Source: Thermococcus eurythermalis
Lineage (GTDB): Archaea > Methanobacteriota_B > Thermococci > Thermococcales > Thermococcaceae
Reading direction: 5' to 3'
Length of the DNA stretch: 64,000 bases
NCBI RefSeq assembly: GCF_000769655.1
Contig: NZ_CP008887.1
Location: 1,426,001 to 1,490,000 of the forward strand
How positions within the stretch are numbered: position 1 is the stretch's first letter; every line of letters begins with the position of its first letter. Shown in pieces: positions 3,246 through 10,294 of the stretch. The position numbers were made by a program, and so were the translations under genes. Under the pieces are notes generated by a model. That model saw only the letters and a program-made list of their open reading frames with translations, was not told where the DNA came from and ran no database searches.

Positions 3246-4558
3246 ATGAAGCGCTCAGTAACAATAAAACTCCACCCCTCAAAAGAACAAGCGAAAATCC
3301 TCCACCAGTTAGCCGATTCAGGAGCCAAAGCCTGGAACCGAGTAAACTACTTGAGGCGACAACAATACTTCAAAGACCAAATCGTGGACTTTAACAGAAC
3401 CGAGAAAACCGTTTATGGGGAGTTTAAACGGGAAATCGGTTCAGCAACCGTCCAGCAAATAGCGAGGAAAAACGCCGAAGCTTGGCGGAGTTTCTTCTCC
3501 CTCCTCCGAAAAAAGCGGAATGGTGAACTTCCCTCTTGGCTTAAGCCCAAACCACCAAACTATCTCAAAGAAGGCTGGCAGAGAAAACCCTTAATCGTCC
3601 TGAGAAACGACCAGTACAAGATTGAAGGGAACAAACTAATCCTCAAGGGTCTTGGCAAGTTTAAACGCCTCGAAGTCCAGTTTAAGGGAAGAATTCACCT
3701 GAAGGGCAAGCAGGGGCGGTTAGAAATCACTTACGACCCCGTTAGGAGAAAATGGTATGCTCACGTGAGCTTTACAGTCGAGGAAAAACTCGAAGACGAA
3801 AAATGGGTAAGAGTTCCAAGAACTCCAAAGGGAAGCCTCTCGGCGGGCATAGACTTGGGAGTGAACAATCTCATGGCCGTCTATGTCGAGAATGGAGAAA
3901 GCTTTCTGGTCAATGGAAGACCGCCTAAAAGCATTGACTTCTACTGGAGGAAGAAGATTGCTGACTACCAGTCAAAACTCAATAAATCGGGAGCCAAGAC
4001 GAGTAGGAAACTCAGGAGAATGCACGAAAAGGCTAAGCTTCAGGCTAAACACTACATCAACACTGCCGTAAGAGGAACGGTTAGGAAGCTCTACGAGTTG
4101 GAGTTAATAGAATCGTCGTTGGTTATCCAAAGGGCATGGCTCGGAATTCTGACAAGGGTAAAAGGCAGAACTTCCTCCTCTCTCACGTTTGGAGGTTTAA
4201 TTACGTTATTAAACGCTTGATTGAAGTTGCGGAAGAGTATGGTATTCGTGTTGTGGTTGTTAATGAGGCTTTCACGTCTAAGGTTTGTCCCGTTTGCGGG
4301 AAGCCTCACGAGGGGGCTCGTTTCGTTCGTGGTTTGTTTGAGTGTCCCGCGACGGGGCTTGTCATGAATGCTGATCTCGTTGGTGCTTTTAACATTTTGA
4401 GGAAGGTTGTGAGGACCATAACCCCGAATCTGGGCAGGCTTTATGCTCAGAGGAGGGGTAACGGGGGGAAGGCCCGGCCAGAGGGGTTCGAAGAACCCTT
4501 TTCAAGGGTTGCCCTAATGAGAACCCCTCGAACCTCCCCATCACTGGCGAGGGGTTAA
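3246..4558 (+). pseudogene. tnpB: tnpB (RNA-guided nuclease family), frameshifted
   Basis: The first frame runs 3246-4220 and the second from before 4136 to 4558; together they match the intact 436-residue TnpB at 28247-29557 from end to end. The break is near 4099-4101, where the intact copy predicts one more G (…TAY-GAG-TTG-GGA-GTT-AAT…), so one base has been lost. The two frames still hold the family features: the first RuvC Asp (AGIDLGVNNLMAV), the zinc ribbon CPVCG of which only the first pair is Cys-x-x-Cys, and the last Asp (NADLVGAFNI). It looks recently inactivated because no other damage is seen. Confidence 0.85.
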
Positions 4559-4609: not shown

Positions 4610-5932
4610 TCACTTCGTCGCCCTCGTTATCCCGACGTCCTCCACGAGGACGTAGGGCGTCGAGACCGGCGTGCTGACCTCCCACCAGTGGATGTGGTAG
4701 CTCTCCTTTCCGAGGGCCCTGATGCCCTCAAGGATTCTCTGCAGGTTGTCGCTGACGCGGACGTTCCTTATCGGCTTCAGCTCGCCGTTTTCAATGAGGA
4801 ATATCCCGTCCCTCGGTATCGTCGAGAAGTCCCCTGCAACGTAGTTCTGGAAGCGCGTGTACCAGACGTTGGTGATGTAGATGCCCCTCTTGACCTCGCT
4901 GAAGAGCTCCTCCTTCGACCAGTCGCCCGGTTCGAGGACTATGTTCCAGGCGTGGGGCATTATCAAGCCCGCGTTTGCCGTGGTCTCTGTGCCGTACTTC
5001 CTGGCAAGGCTCGTGTTAAGGAGGAACGTCTTGAAGGTTCCGTTCTCGATTATCGTCGTTTCCCTTGTCGGGACGCCCTCGTCGTCGAACTTTCTCGTTC
5101 CGTAGCCGTTGGGCATGTTGCCGACGTCCTTTATCGTGACGAGCTCACTCGCGACCTTCTGGCCGAGCTTGTCCACGAGGAAGCTGAAACCGGCCTCTGC
5201 CGCGTAAGCCGAGGTCATGAAGCTCATGTAGCTGAGCAGGTTCGCAAACGCCAGCGGGTCGAAGATGACGTCGAAGCGTCCCTCCGGTCCCTGCTCCGGG
5301 TTCTGCGCCATTCTTGCTATCTCTCCTGCTTTTCTTCCAGCGGATTCTGGGTCGAACTTCTTGAGGACGCGGACCGAGTTCGTCCCGTGGCCGCTCTCAA
5401 GGTCTCCGATGAAGGCCCTAACGCTTATCTCTATCCCCGTCCCCTCGTCGAAGGCCTCAACGCCGTTGCTCGTGGTGAGGTAAAGCTTGTTGTGGTCGGT
5501 GTAGAGGACACCTGCAACTCTCTTGGCGCCCTCCTCGAGGGCGGCGTTGATGGCTCTCTCCACGTACTCGTTCGGCTCGTCGAGCTCAACTATGGCCTTG
5601 TCAAAGGTCTCTGGAATGTCCCTGTACTCAAACGGACCCTCGGCGATTCCATAGTAGTCCTCCTTCGGCGCCATGCCCTTCATGTTGCTCAAGAGTGTCT
5701 TTAGAGTCCTCTCGATGTTCTCCTCGCTCAGCTCGGTTATGGTCGTGCTCGCTACCCTCTTGTCCTTCTCGACGAAGAGCTCCACCTTCCTCTCGTGCCA
5801 GTTCTTGGCGACGGTTATCTCGTTGTTGGCGAAGCGAACCTGTCTCCTGTCCATCTCGTAGCCCAGAACTACGACGTCACCGAAGCCGAGCTCCTTGGCC
5901 TTCTTAAGGATGAACTCATTAACGTCGAACAT
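4610..5932 (-). CDS. tldE: TldE/PmbA-family protein (TldD partner)
   Basis: A 440-residue member of the TldD/PmbA family. It lacks the HExxxH metal site, so it is the non-catalytic TldE-type subunit, which in known pairs forms a heterodimeric metalloprotease with TldD. Family features include RFANNEITVAKNW near the N terminus and NARAQ-region equivalents such as TANAGLIMPHAWNIVLEPG and GDFSTIPRDGIFLIENGEL. The start is set at ATG 5932, which follows GAGGTGGTGA; the longer frame would begin inside the tldD remnant. It sits 10 bases downstream of the tldD stop, as in an operon, yet tldD itself is broken, so this subunit is probably without its partner unless another TldD exists. Confidence 0.85.
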   Translation of the reverse strand: MFDVNEFILKKAKELGFGDVVVLGYEMDRRQVRFANNEITVAKNWHERKVELFVEKDKRVASTTITELSEENIERTLKTLLSNMKGMAPKEDYYGIAEGPFEYRDIPETFDKAIVELDEPNEYVERAINAALEEGAKRVAGVLYTDHNKLYLTTSNGVEAFDEGTGIEISVRAFIGDLESGHGTNSVRVLKKFDPESAGRKAGEIARMAQNPEQGPEGRFDVIFDPLAFANLLSYMSFMTSAYAAEAGFSFLVDKLGQKVASELVTIKDVGNMPNGYGTRKFDDEGVPTRETTIIENGTFKTFLLNTSLARKYGTETTANAGLIMPHAWNIVLEPGDWSKEELFSEVKRGIYITNVWYTRFQNYVAGDFSTIPRDGIFLIENGELKPIRNVRVSDNLQRILEGIRALGKESYHIHWWEVSTPVSTPYVLVEDVGITRATK

Positions 5933-5942
5933 CTTCACCACC

Positions 5943-6062
5943 TCACGGCCTCCTAAGCGGTATGTCCCTGAGCCTCGCGTGTGATCCACCCATCCACACC
6001 GGGACTCCCTGACTGGGCTCGCCCTTACCGCAGGTTCCAGGATAGAACTCGACGTCTTTACT
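5943..6062 (-). pseudogene. tldD: tldD, severed 3' end
   Basis: On the minus strand, the frame that ends at TGA 5943-5945 reads …KDVEFYPGTCGKG then EPSQGVPVWMGGSHARLRDI and LRRP. This is the conserved C-terminal end of TldD proteins (PGTCGKG-x-P-x-Q-x-x-P). It has no start and is separated from the 5' part of the gene (8803-9747) by the AT-rich radical SAM cassette. Recognisable similarity stops around 6060. The natural tldD-tldE junction (stop within the tldE ribosome site) is intact, which shows that the two genes formed an operon before the insertion. Confidence 0.85.
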
Positions 6063-6110
6063 GTGGAATTTATATTAACTGAAAGTTAATAACCTCTTGT
6101 CTTAAAAAAA

Positions 6111-6119
6111 TTTATAAAT
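6111..6119 (+). promoter_or_regulatory. TATA box of the RiPP cassette
   Basis: TTTATAAAT preceded by an A-rich stretch (CTTAAAAAAA), a standard archaeal BRE/TATA arrangement. It lies about 47 bases before the GTG of the peptide gene, so the transcript would start near 6140 and carry GGAGGTG at 6153-6159. It lies inside the inserted segment, so the cassette seems to bring its own promoter. Confidence 0.6.
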
Positions 6120-6165
6120 TCATGGTTTTGTAATTGTACTTGAAAAACACTTGGAGGTGTGAATT

Positions 6166-6285
6166 GTGAAAATAGAAACACTTTACACCACAAAGGAGGA
6201 GATAACCAGCGGATGTCAGGTACCTCCGAATTTTTACGGATGTCCAAATTTGTGCATAACAATAAATGACGAGGAGTCTGAGTGA
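6166..6285 (+). CDS. putative RiPP precursor peptide, 39 residues
   Basis: A short gene starting at GTG 6166, six bases after a strong GGAGGTG. The first half is charged and leader-like (MKIETLYTTKEEITSG) and the second is a compact Cys/Pro/Asn core with Cys at 17, 26 and 30 (GCQVPPNFYGCPNLC), ending in an acidic tail (NDEESE). It is followed at once by a radical SAM/SPASM enzyme and a transporter, the usual order for ribosomally made, modified peptides. Thioether cross-links (sacti- or ranthipeptide type) to one or more of the Cys are a reasonable guess. T-rich DNA at 6297-6315 after the stop may end part of the transcripts and raise peptide over enzyme. I know of no named family that it matches. 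Confidence 0.7.
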   Translation: MKIETLYTTKEEITSGCQVPPNFYGCPNLCITINDEESE

Positions 6286-6349
6286 GATTTTAGATTAGAA
6301 TTTTTTATTTTTTATATTTGATTTGAGGTAATATACAAGGTGATATACA

Positions 6350-7636
6350 ATGAGATTAAATAAACTTGTACACTTTATTAAAAACGATGATGGATACATT
6401 GTCATAAATCCCCTTATCGGAGAGATCGATGTCATTGACTCTGAACTATACAATATGCTAATATCAGCAAATTTCAATTTGATTCCCCAAAAAATATTTG
6501 AGGTGTTAAAAGATAAATTAATTATAGTCCAAGATAATTACAATGAATTTTATGCTTATGAAAATCTTTTGAAAAAATTGAAATTTGATGTATCCTTTCA
6601 AACATTCACAATACTTGTCACTAGATCGTGTAACTTTGAATGTGTATATTGTTATGAACATACTAATCAAATTTTACTCCAAGAAAGACACATGAACAGG
6701 CGCATTGCAGATGAAGTCATTGAGTTTATCAATAGGATGTCATATAACTCAAAAAAGATAAAGGTGATATTCTATGGTGGCGAGCCACTCCTAAATATTA
6801 ATGTACTCACATATCTTATGGACGAACTAGAAAGTCATCAGGGTCAAAAAATTACGTTTGAGCTGATAACTAATGGTTATCTTGTAAAGGATCTGTGGGA
6901 GAGGTATAAAAAATACTTCAAGAAATTTAAACAAATTCAAATAACGTTGGATGGTCCTCCAGAAATTCATAACAAGCTCCGCCCATTAAGAGGAGGGCTC
7001 CCTACATTTGAGACAATAATTACGGGAATCAAATTGCTGACAGATAATGGAGTTCATGTTGCTTTAAGATCTAACTTGTACCTAAAGTACATTAAGGAAT
7101 ATCCAAAACTGCTTGATGAGTTAGATAGATACGGGATAAACAAAAAGTATCTTCATATAGGAATAGGATTTGTTCACCCAGATGAAATTAAAAATTATCC
7201 TCTGATTTCAAAAAAATTTCTTAATTTATATTTGCAAATTAAGAGAAGAGGTTTTAGTATAACTCTCCCGTTCTATGTACAGAGAATACCCTGTGGAGCA
7301 ATAACAAACAATTCATTTGTTATTGATTATAATGGAGATATTTATAAATGTTGGGCTTTAGTGGGATTAAAACAATTTAAAGTTGGGACTGTACAAAAGG
7401 GCATCTCAGAAAAAACCCACAGAAAGTTCCTTAGTCTTAATCCGCTTAATAATTCAAAATGCAGGGATTGTCCAATGTTAATGTTTTGTGGTGGTGGATG
7501 TATATACAATAACTACTTGCATTCTGGCAAATTGGATCTTGGTTTTTGTCCCTTTCAAAAATACAGTTTCAGGGAGTACCTACAACTATTCATTAAGGAG
7601 TTAGGAGACAAATATGCAAGTAAGAAACAAATTTAG
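6350..7636 (+). CDS. radical SAM/SPASM peptide maturase
   Basis: A 428-residue enzyme. Residues 1-80 form a small beta/winged-helix region (DGYIVINPLIGEIDVID) like the peptide-binding RRE found at the front of such maturases. The radical SAM cluster is C94-x3-C98-x2-C101, followed by the GGEP motif (FYGGEPL, 142-147). The C-terminal SPASM domain has the classic spacing: C315, then G329-x4-C334, C371-x2-C374-x5-C380-x3-C384 and C400, enough to hold two auxiliary Fe-S clusters. Members of this family install thioether or carbon-carbon links in a peptide encoded next door; here that is the 39-residue gene 64 bases upstream. The ribosome site AAGGTGAT fits ATG 6350. Codon use is AT-rich, unlike the flanking tldDE genes. 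Confidence 0.9.
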   Translation: MRLNKLVHFIKNDDGYIVINPLIGEIDVIDSELYNMLISANFNLIPQKIFEVLKDKLIIVQDNYNEFYAYENLLKKLKFDVSFQTFTILVTRSCNFECVYCYEHTNQILLQERHMNRRIADEVIEFINRMSYNSKKIKVIFYGGEPLLNINVLTYLMDELESHQGQKITFELITNGYLVKDLWERYKKYFKKFKQIQITLDGPPEIHNKLRPLRGGLPTFETIITGIKLLTDNGVHVALRSNLYLKYIKEYPKLLDELDRYGINKKYLHIGIGFVHPDEIKNYPLISKKFLNLYLQIKRRGFSITLPFYVQRIPCGAITNNSFVIDYNGDIYKCWALVGLKQFKVGTVQKGISEKTHRKFLSLNPLNNSKCRDCPMLMFCGGGCIYNNYLHSGKLDLGFCPFQKYSFREYLQLFIKELGDKYASKKQI

Positions 7637-7655
7637 CGAGTTAGGAGGCGAGACC

Positions 7656-8789
7656 ATGAACTACGTTAATCGTTTCTACATTTCGAGTCTTCTTCATATA
7701 GTTTTCTATTCTGGTTTCTACTTAATCTATCTTCAGAGTCTTGGCCTTTCTAAAACCCAGATGGGATTTTTAATGAGTTTATCTCTAATTCTAGTTGCTT
7801 TACTTGAAGTCCCTACAGGAATCGTTGCTGACAAGATTTCAAAGAAGGTAAGTGTCTTACTTTCAAAGATCCTCACGATACCGAGCGTGCTTGCATTGTA
7901 CCTTGCGCATTCCTTTCCAGGGGTTCTCCTTGCGACACTCTTCGGCGCGCTTTCAGTTGCTCTCATGACCGGGGCAGAAACTGGGTGGATTTACGAACTT
8001 CTCAGCAAGAGTGGTAGAGCCAAGGATTATCCAAAGGTTTATGGTAGGCTTAGATCTTTCGAGATGATAGGAGGTTTCGTTGGAACCATGATGGGCGGAT
8101 TCCTCGCTGATTTTGTCGGCATGAGATTAACGATACTCTTAACTATACCCTTCGTCGTCGCATCCTTTCTTGTTCTCGCCACGATTCCTGGAGATGAAGC
8201 AAAGAGTGGGCTTTCTTATAGTCTCCACCTTCTTGAAAGCTTGAAATTCATAAAAAAACCTCCAGAAGTCATTTGGCTCTTCCTATATGCTAACATCATT
8301 GGACTTCCAGTTACAGCCTTCACAGCTTTTATGCAACTCTACTTTTATAGGTTCCTGGCATCCCTTATAGCAGTTTCGGCAATCTCTGCATTCCATACGG
8401 TCATCAACAGCGTCTCATGGTGCCTTGACGTTGGTAAGTACAGAGATGTTTTCTACCGTCATGCGGGAATAATACTACCCCTCCTTCTTCTCCTTGCAGG
8501 GCTTAATAAATGGCTCGGTTTTGTTACCCTAATCCTTGGCACTTTCACATTTGCCCAGGCCTTCAAGGAGTGGCAAGGGAAGTTCCAAGGTGCGATTCCT
8601 GACGAAAAGAGGGCAACATTAGGGTCTCTTTACTCACTCACTGCGGCGATAACCAATGGCATCCTAAACGCTCTCCTAGGATGGCTCTTTGACTGTATCG
8701 GTATAATGCACGGGCTTATTATTATAGCCTCATTCTTCCTTGGGATAGGCTTTTTATTCTCAATTATTAGTAGGAAGCACGGCTATTAA
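7656..8789 (+). CDS. MFS transporter, probable peptide exporter
   Basis: A 377-residue membrane protein of the major facilitator superfamily with about 11-12 hydrophobic segments. The A-motif-like loop after segment 2 reads GIVADKISKKVSVLLSK. I start it at ATG 7656, just after TTAGGAGGCGA; the longer frame at 7614 would overlap the radical SAM gene by 23 bases and lacks a ribosome site. It is the last gene of the cassette, 19 bases after the maturase, so the natural reading is export of (or self-protection from) the modified peptide. Similar MFS proteins are general drug/efflux transporters, so the substrate is inferred from position only. The gene stops 13 bases before the broken tldD frame. 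Confidence 0.8.
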   Translation: MNYVNRFYISSLLHIVFYSGFYLIYLQSLGLSKTQMGFLMSLSLILVALLEVPTGIVADKISKKVSVLLSKILTIPSVLALYLAHSFPGVLLATLFGALSVALMTGAETGWIYELLSKSGRAKDYPKVYGRLRSFEMIGGFVGTMMGGFLADFVGMRLTILLTIPFVVASFLVLATIPGDEAKSGLSYSLHLLESLKFIKKPPEVIWLFLYANIIGLPVTAFTAFMQLYFYRFLASLIAVSAISAFHTVINSVSWCLDVGKYRDVFYRHAGIILPLLLLLAGLNKWLGFVTLILGTFTFAQAFKEWQGKFQGAIPDEKRATLGSLYSLTAAITNGILNALLGWLFDCIGIMHGLIIIASFFLGIGFLFSIISRKHGY

Positions 8790-8802
8790 GGTCTTTTTGG
8801 CT

Positions 8803-9747
8803 TTATCCTTCGAAATGGGCTTTAACGCCCTCGTCATCGTAGAGGTAGAAGCCCCAGCTGTTCGGAATCGTCGGGTCGTCTATGACAGTGACTACCTCGC
8901 TCCCGATTCTCTCGCCGAGCATGTCGGGCTTGACAAAGCTCTCTCCCGCCTGGGCGGCTTCCCTACCAAAAATCCTGTCGGACTCGTAGGGGTGGCCGAC
9001 GCTCTCGTGAACCGCTATGCCAGCGACTTCAGGGCTTATGACGAGGTCAACCCTCCCTTCCGGTGGCTTCTTGCCCTCGGTTATGAGCCTCTTCAGGGCT
9101 TTGACGTCCTTCACCGCCCAGTTCCAGGGCTCGTCCTTCTCGATTAGCTCGAAACCACCGGAAAAGGCCCTCTGGACGAAGGGCGCCTGCTCCATCTGAC
9201 CGTTCTCGAAGACAACGAGGTTATAAGTTACCGAAACGCGCGGGATTTTGCTCTTTACGTAGGCCCCCTCGCTGTTTACGAAGACCTTCTTCCATAGCTG
9301 GTCGGAGTACATCAGGTAGCGCATGGGAACGTTCACGCCGGTGGCTTTAACCTCCTCCTCGATTTTCCGGAGGATTTCTAACTTCTCTTCCGGGGAAACG
9401 TCCCTGAAGTCCTTCTTCATCTTGACCTTGTAGGAAACGCGGTGGAAGTCCTCTTCTGAAAAGCGAATTGGCTCGTTTCTCACCTTGGAGGCCGCTCTGG
9501 CTAGCTTAACGGCCTTCTTGACGGCCTCAGCGACGCTCTCCTTCGTGAGGACGTTGGTGCTTGCGAAGCCCATGCCTCCCCCGACTAAAACCCTGATGCC
9601 AATCCCCCTGTCGGCGAGTATCTCAAGGCCTTCGGGATTGCCGTTCTTCATGGCCAGAGAAGTGCCGTTCTTCTCCTCAAAGCGAGCCTCGGCATAGCTT
9701 GCCCCCAGTTCGAGGGCTTTCTCAACGGCAAATTCCAGAAGTTCCAT
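8803..9747 (-). pseudogene. tldD: tldD, severed 5' part with the metal-binding motif
   Basis: 314 residues from ATG 9747 (after GAGGTGGTG) to a stop reached as soon as the frame leaves conserved TldD sequence. The metalloprotease motif HESVGH (HExxxH) is present in IAVHESVGHPYESDRIFG, and the frame ends at DDEGVKAHFEG, where family members continue for roughly 110-150 more residues. The last part of that missing stretch survives at 5943-6062, but about 115 residues in between are absent, so insertion of the cassette came with loss of tldD sequence. Known TldD pairs with TldE to cleave unfolded or leader peptides; the third conserved region carrying the remaining metal ligand is missing, so this product should be inactive. 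Confidence 0.88.
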
Positions 9748-9902
9748 GCACACCACCTCGGATTAATGCATATAATAGTCCATAGAAGAGTATAAAAGTC
9801 TTTCCGTTTAGATGGATATCGAAAAGAAGAGAAGGCTTAAGTGTTCTTCTCATCATTAAATTCGGAAAGAGAGAAAATGTGTACGAATGAGAGATGCCCA
9901 AG

Positions 9903-10217: not shown

Positions 10218-10294
<77 letters not shown>

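Follow-up and report, generated by a model that had tools for sequence, protein, structure and literature searches.

The best explanation for the locus described here, and one in which we have fairly good confidence, is a mobile RiPP cassette that encodes a peptide, a radical SAM maturase, and an MFS transporter and that has recently moved into the tldD gene of Thermococcus eurythermalis. The cassette was found in a stretch of 64,000 nucleotides, which we refer to as the window (Table 1). Judged from its sequence, this RiPP cassette with a radical SAM enzyme represents a new subfamily within a known kind of system, and the best reading of the three genes is that they are probably ranthipeptide-like. 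A preliminary description of this DNA had proposed a peptide, a maturase, and a transporter behind their own TATA box in an AT-rich block. All three genes and the BRE/TATA element are present in the sequence, but only the peptide and maturase genes are strongly AT-rich (28–35% GC, about 32%); the MFS gene has about 44–46% GC, and the host about 55–58%. That description overlooked the setting, namely that the cassette lies inside tldD, that its transporter belongs to a tldD-neighboring family, and that the unit has recently moved between species.

The sequence CTTTA is present at either junction of the cassette (6056–6060 and 8819–8823). Apart from these 5 bp we found no long terminal repeats in 6060–8817, and none of the ORFs in this interval is a recombinase gene; the cassette thus lacks the recombinase and terminal repeats of an autonomous transposon or integrative element. 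It has neither a dedicated peptidase gene nor an immunity gene. The T-rich run that follows the peptide gene is likely a partial archaeal terminator, which would favor peptide mRNA over maturase mRNA.

Table 1. Features of the cassette and of the interrupted tldDE locus, with positions in the window.
Feature	Position	Strand	Basis or remark
tldE, open frame intact	4610–5932	-	Downstream of broken tldD
tldD C-terminal fragment, 38 codons, TCGKG motif kept	5943–6059	-	Sequence and alignment
Inserted cassette	6060–8817		Substitutes for 372 bp of tldD; aligned with intact tldD from G033 and about 26 other genomes
Short palindrome TTAACTGAAAGTTAA	6076–6090		Close to left end of cassette; inversion breakpoint of G042 inside (6080/6081)
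BRE and TATA box AAAAAAATTTATAAA, putative promoter	about 6104–6118	+	Sequence; identical in G042
Shine–Dalgarno sequence of peptide gene, GGAGGTG	6153–6159	+	Sequence; six bases ahead of GTG start
Precursor peptide gene, 39 aa, MKIETLYTTKEEITSGCQVPPNFYGCPNLCITINDEESE	6166–6285	+	ORF; 38 of 39 residues same in G042; shuffle test
T-rich run	6301–6319	+	Sequence; separates peptide gene from maturase gene
Radical SAM/SPASM peptide maturase, 428 aa	6350–7636	+	Pfam/NCBIfam, motifs, structure model
MFS transporter, 377 aa	7656–8789	+	MFS_1 match; start from Shine–Dalgarno GGAGGC (7644–7649) and homologue alignment
tldD N-terminal fragment, about 313 codons, HESVGH kept	8818–9756	-	ORF continues to 8803 in cassette sequence

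The small peptide of the preliminary description, with Cys at positions 17, 26, and 30, is confirmed as an ORF with a Shine–Dalgarno sequence and a putative promoter. It starts with GTG and its product contains no Trp. A comparable ORF (30–80 aa, at least three Cys, and a Shine–Dalgarno sequence) arose in 41 of 20,000 dinucleotide shuffles of 6061–6349 (0.2%). The sole difference between this peptide and that of G042, the other genome with the cassette, is the substitution N34D, by which C30-x3-N34 becomes C30-x3-D34. CX3D is the acceptor motif of ranthipeptides, and the C30-x3-N34/D34 arrangement resembles it. We detected no relatives of the peptide outside the window genome and G042. Weak matches in nearly all family genomes were rejected as homologues; they fall in the ferredoxin-like part of a conserved protein of roughly 650 aa. 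Other weak matches, to conserved sequence interrupted by a stop codon, were rejected as well. In eight Thermococcus genomes (L113–L120, near 2.0–2.1 kb) a conserved stretch reads EPLYSTARFIGC.QPPNFFRA..*INLCIT with an internal stop, and it is perhaps a conserved non-coding element.

The maturase gene has its own Shine–Dalgarno sequence (GGTGAT, 6339–6344), and both Pfam and NCBIfam identify its product as a radical SAM enzyme carrying a SPASM domain. The radical SAM CxxxCxxC motif of the protein consists of C94, C98, and C101, and all seven SPASM cysteines claimed earlier are present (C315, C334, C371, C374, C380, C384, and C400). These motif cysteines, which mark radical SAM/SPASM RiPP systems in general, are invariant or nearly so across 29 relatives. 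The best-scoring NCBIfam families are all peptide maturases, with CefB at 222 bits followed by TIGR04463 and geopeptide (177 each), Clo7bot (161), and PapB (151). There are weaker matches to cyclophane and sactipeptide maturases too. None of the curated family (equivalog) cut-offs was passed, the scores being 222 of 600 bits for CefB, 123 of 425 for SCIFF, 151 of 340 for PapB, and 96 of 349 for the anaerobic sulfatase maturase. We also searched solved structures with an AlphaFold model of the maturase (pLDDT 87). Results from this placed CteB first and TigE second, followed by anSMEcpe, SuiB, and ChlB, and a sequence search of solved structures also put CteB first. CteB, a SCIFF-peptide maturase, matches by sequence and fold (5wgg/5why; E 3e-24 and 1e-21). 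Residues 8–78 form three strands and three helices in the model, which would fit an N-terminal leader-binding RRE domain; the fold match to CteB and TigE is that of the whole model. Of the 94 family genomes, 28 (the window genome counted) have a maturase relative at E ≤ 1e-20. In a tree of relatives the maturase stands alone on a long branch, and its identity to the others does not exceed 31%. The earlier reading of the locus is partly supported. Gene order, peptide-maturase families, and Cys ORFs favor a RiPP cassette; the thioether bonds, with their linked carbon, and a role as archaeocin or signal are conjectural.

Small Cys ORFs are common beside relatives of the maturase. At least one such ORF with a Shine–Dalgarno sequence adjoins 25 of 37 maturase-relative loci, near-duplicate loci among them, compared with 1 of 27 control genes (ORFs with at least two Cys and a Shine–Dalgarno sequence, on the same strand, within 700 bp). 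A short precursor gene conserved beside the maturase, the general mark of radical SAM/SPASM RiPP systems, is thus seen here. The preliminary description had named absence of the small gene from all maturase-bearing relatives as evidence against its proposal. However, the peptide is present in G042, the only close relative with the maturase (99% identical), and the 25 loci just mentioned are distant ones. Peptide starts at several loci look similar by eye (MEFEVV.., MEFEII.., MKIEIL.., MKCEKV..; MKIETL.. in the window), as if the leaders were of one type. At two Thermococcus loci with CefB-like maturases (L010, 1441–2766; L011, 1471–2796) every fifth residue of the peptides is a Cys, and L011 has several such peptides in tandem. 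In another family of the class (L130 of G113) the maturase is flanked by at least three look-alike short peptides running from MKCEKVE... to CPPYPCGCINI or similar. At the second maturase locus of the host (L002, 2657–2803; C1, about 472 kb), the peptide MEFEVVNPGDNTKSGNRPCPLFDHGGCPFPKDMECWWPEDICYRPEPI overlaps the end of the maturase gene, and loci resembling this one are also found in G016, G017, and G022.

The transporter of the preliminary description is an MFS_1 protein. Its true start is almost surely the ATG at 7656 rather than 7614 because homologues align only from residue 10–14 (mostly 12–14) of the longer ORF. Relatives with 59–79% identity occur in 15 cassette-free genomes. In 13 of these, from three genera, the gene lies head-to-head with an intact tldD, and the nearest copy (78–79% identical) adjoins the tldD of another genus. 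These comparisons assign the cassette MFS to a tldD-linked subfamily that may have joined the unit separately.

Intact tldD frames of 477–478 codons occur in nearly all other genomes of the genus, and alignment of relatives places the two junction points 372 bp apart in the intact gene. Through the insertion, HExxxH and the third zinc ligand, which the TCGKG motif of the C-terminal fragment should hold, come to lie on separate fragments. A search of the window genome for a second tldD gave nothing at E ≤ 1e-60. The E. coli enzyme binds zinc via HExxxH and a remote Cys454 and is active only as TldD/E (PMC5810440), and because of these needs the split tldD should be inactive. Beside tldE lies a TnpB-like gene (3246–4558, plus strand) that is spread over two reading frames (3246–4220 and 4136–4558) and is therefore probably frameshifted; this stretch has no match in the G042 locus. 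The sole tRNA gene of the window, tRNA-Arg (TCT) at 10218–10294 on the minus strand, is 1.4 kb from the cassette and is not the insertion point. When 4610–9756 was compared with G033 and G021, the tldD of the window genome was closest to that of G033 (92%), whereas the exosome marker groups this genome with G021. This suggests an exchange of the tldDE locus itself between clades.

G042 is the only other genome among the 94 of the family to have the cassette, and the peptide and maturase occur together in these two genomes alone. Both junctions are the same in the two. The cassette copies are 99.6% identical (99.2–99.7% for the genes), differing at 11 positions in the peptide, maturase, and MFS genes and at three in the 5' region. 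By comparison, identity is 86.8% for the flanking tldD and 87% for the flanking tldE, and dS is 0.008 for the maturase versus 0.70 for the tldD fragment. Identity between the copies drops within 17–19 bp beyond each junction. No long shared tract lies next to the junctions, which argues against transfer with long homologous flanks, and we ruled that route out. With the exosome operon as species marker, the window genome (G000) groups with G021 and G042 groups with G036/G071, the two clades being distinct and well supported; a single clade of G000 and G042 was rejected (p-AU 2.2e-5). Because the cassettes are nearly identical while the flanks have diverged and the hosts belong to separate clades, the unit has moved recently to one exact site. 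On this sequence evidence, its arrival is recent, and the simplest account is that it reached the same place in tldD more than once. Searches of plasmid and phage records gave no cassette DNA, and viral contigs contained neither the peptide core nor any maturase relative. In G042, a 1.43-kb piece with tldE and the tldD C-terminal fragment is inverted (L042, 6579–8009), with breakpoints at window positions 4648 and 6080, the latter in the left-end palindrome, and with the last tldE codons altered. The inversion is possibly an assembly error because G042 is a draft genome.

Several other readings of the genes have to be weighed. It is highly improbable that the maturase modifies proteins, as the anaerobic sulfatase maturases do, and that the small ORF upstream of it is there by chance. 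Even though anSMEcpe comes after CteB and TigE in the structure searches, the maturase does not group with the anaerobic sulfatase maturases, and such a grouping is what the preliminary description had set against its own proposal: it scores 96 bits there versus 222 for CefB, and CteB is best by both sequence and fold. No sulfatase was found among ORFs near the cassette (judged from their sequences, only some of which were run against the family library), and the peptide is conserved, led by a Shine–Dalgarno sequence, and of a kind that shuffling seldom yields. Less easily set aside, yet still unlikely, is that the enzyme makes another radical modification (a C–C cyclophane, an epimerization, or a sactipeptide alpha-thioether), so that the product would be a RiPP but not a ranthipeptide. 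The weaker matches to cyclophane and sactipeptide maturases and the presence of ChlB and SuiB among the structural matches point this way, but most of the families with higher scores have Cys-rich peptides as substrates, and the peptide here contains three Cys while lacking Trp.

Whether all three genes belong together, and how they reached tldD, can also be read differently. The MFS could be a passenger, originally an exporter of drugs or metabolites linked to tldD, that was caught up in the unit as it formed close to a tldD gene. We regard this as a real possibility, albeit a doubtful one. The family's own history at the side of intact tldD genes, with the nearest copy in another genus, means that it may have another substrate and another origin than the AT-rich peptide and maturase part, from which it differs in GC content. 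On the other hand, the gene begins 20 bases past the maturase stop, on the same strand and with its own Shine–Dalgarno sequence, and it moved with the unit nearly unchanged. Moreover, TldD/E is a RiPP leader peptidase that matures a RiPP in E. coli (PMC5810440), so by analogy peptide export by a tldD-linked MFS subfamily is reasonable. Somewhat unlikely is a single insertion into tldD after which the cassette alone was homogenized between two lineages by recombination. Identical junctions and an identical 372-bp loss are easiest to obtain once, but many species with intact tldD stand between the hosts in their separate clades, tldD shows normal purifying selection without decay (omega 0.06, the same as in intact pairs), and identity between copies reaches only 17–19 bp into the diverged flanks. 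We consider it improbable that the cassette is a mobile but non-autonomous unit whose precise target is tldD. In that reading, recombination machinery acting in trans would replace the same 372 bp at every insertion, and the loss of TldD/E proteolysis would be part of the cassette's function, for example by protecting the modified peptide from the host protease.

For the recently moved, ranthipeptide-like cassette that we favor, the following mechanism is proposed. The archaeal promoter would drive the 39-aa precursor, and the RRE-like domain of the maturase would bind its leader (about residues 1–15). With SAM and two SPASM auxiliary clusters, the maturase would then make thioether links from Cys17, Cys26, and Cys30 to nearby core residues (TSGCQVPPNFYGCPNLCITINDEESE). 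A host protease would cut off the leader, and the MFS would export the product and may confer self-protection. Two or more Thermococcus lineages gained the cassette recently, each at the identical position in tldD and with the loss of TldD. The sequences show the genes and their conservation, the family of the maturase, and the insertion with its recent horizontal spread and identical junctions. The cross-link type, export, and insertion mechanism are ones that we infer, and the ecological role would most likely be competition between related strains.

Among known systems, CefA/CefB (NF038107) likewise pairs a radical SAM/SPASM maturase with a small Cys peptide encoded upstream, and the CefB match is nearly full length (maturase residues 5–416). 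However, the Cys spacing in the window is 9 and 4 rather than 5, the peptide is unrelated, the score is far from the cut-off, and the CefB-like maturases of L010 and L011 are 31–32% identical to that of the window. CteB is the closest solved structure, with the same domain order and a putative N-terminal RRE-like part, and the G042 peptide has a CX3D-like motif as in the SCIFF and PapB systems. Unlike SCIFF (maturase TIGR03974), the window peptide has three Cys in 39 residues rather than six in forty-five, and for both systems the cut-offs are missed. Similarity to the geopeptide (TIGR04280), TIGR04463, and Clo7bot maturases is near full length (160–177 bits) but below cut-offs, and the peptides are not alike by eye. 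As in microcin B17 maturation by TldD/E, a RiPP locus is physically joined to tldDE, and in relatives the MFS lies beside tldD; the window cassette, however, destroys tldD rather than using it. In the open-licence literature we found no paper on radical SAM RiPPs of Thermococcus-type archaea and nothing on sacti- or ranthipeptides of Thermococcus or Thermococcales, and a wider search gave nothing closer than predictions. Archaeal ranthi- and sactipeptide loci have only been predicted so far (PMC12144867).

With only three genes, the cassette offers a compact test case in a hyperthermophile. What is unexpected is that it was inserted into tldD recently, exactly, and apparently repeatedly. Its spread between distant relatives at one exact site suggests a trait under selection and an as yet unexplained mode of gene movement in these archaea. 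The host provides, in addition, a natural tldD-null background for testing the elusive role of archaeal TldD/E.
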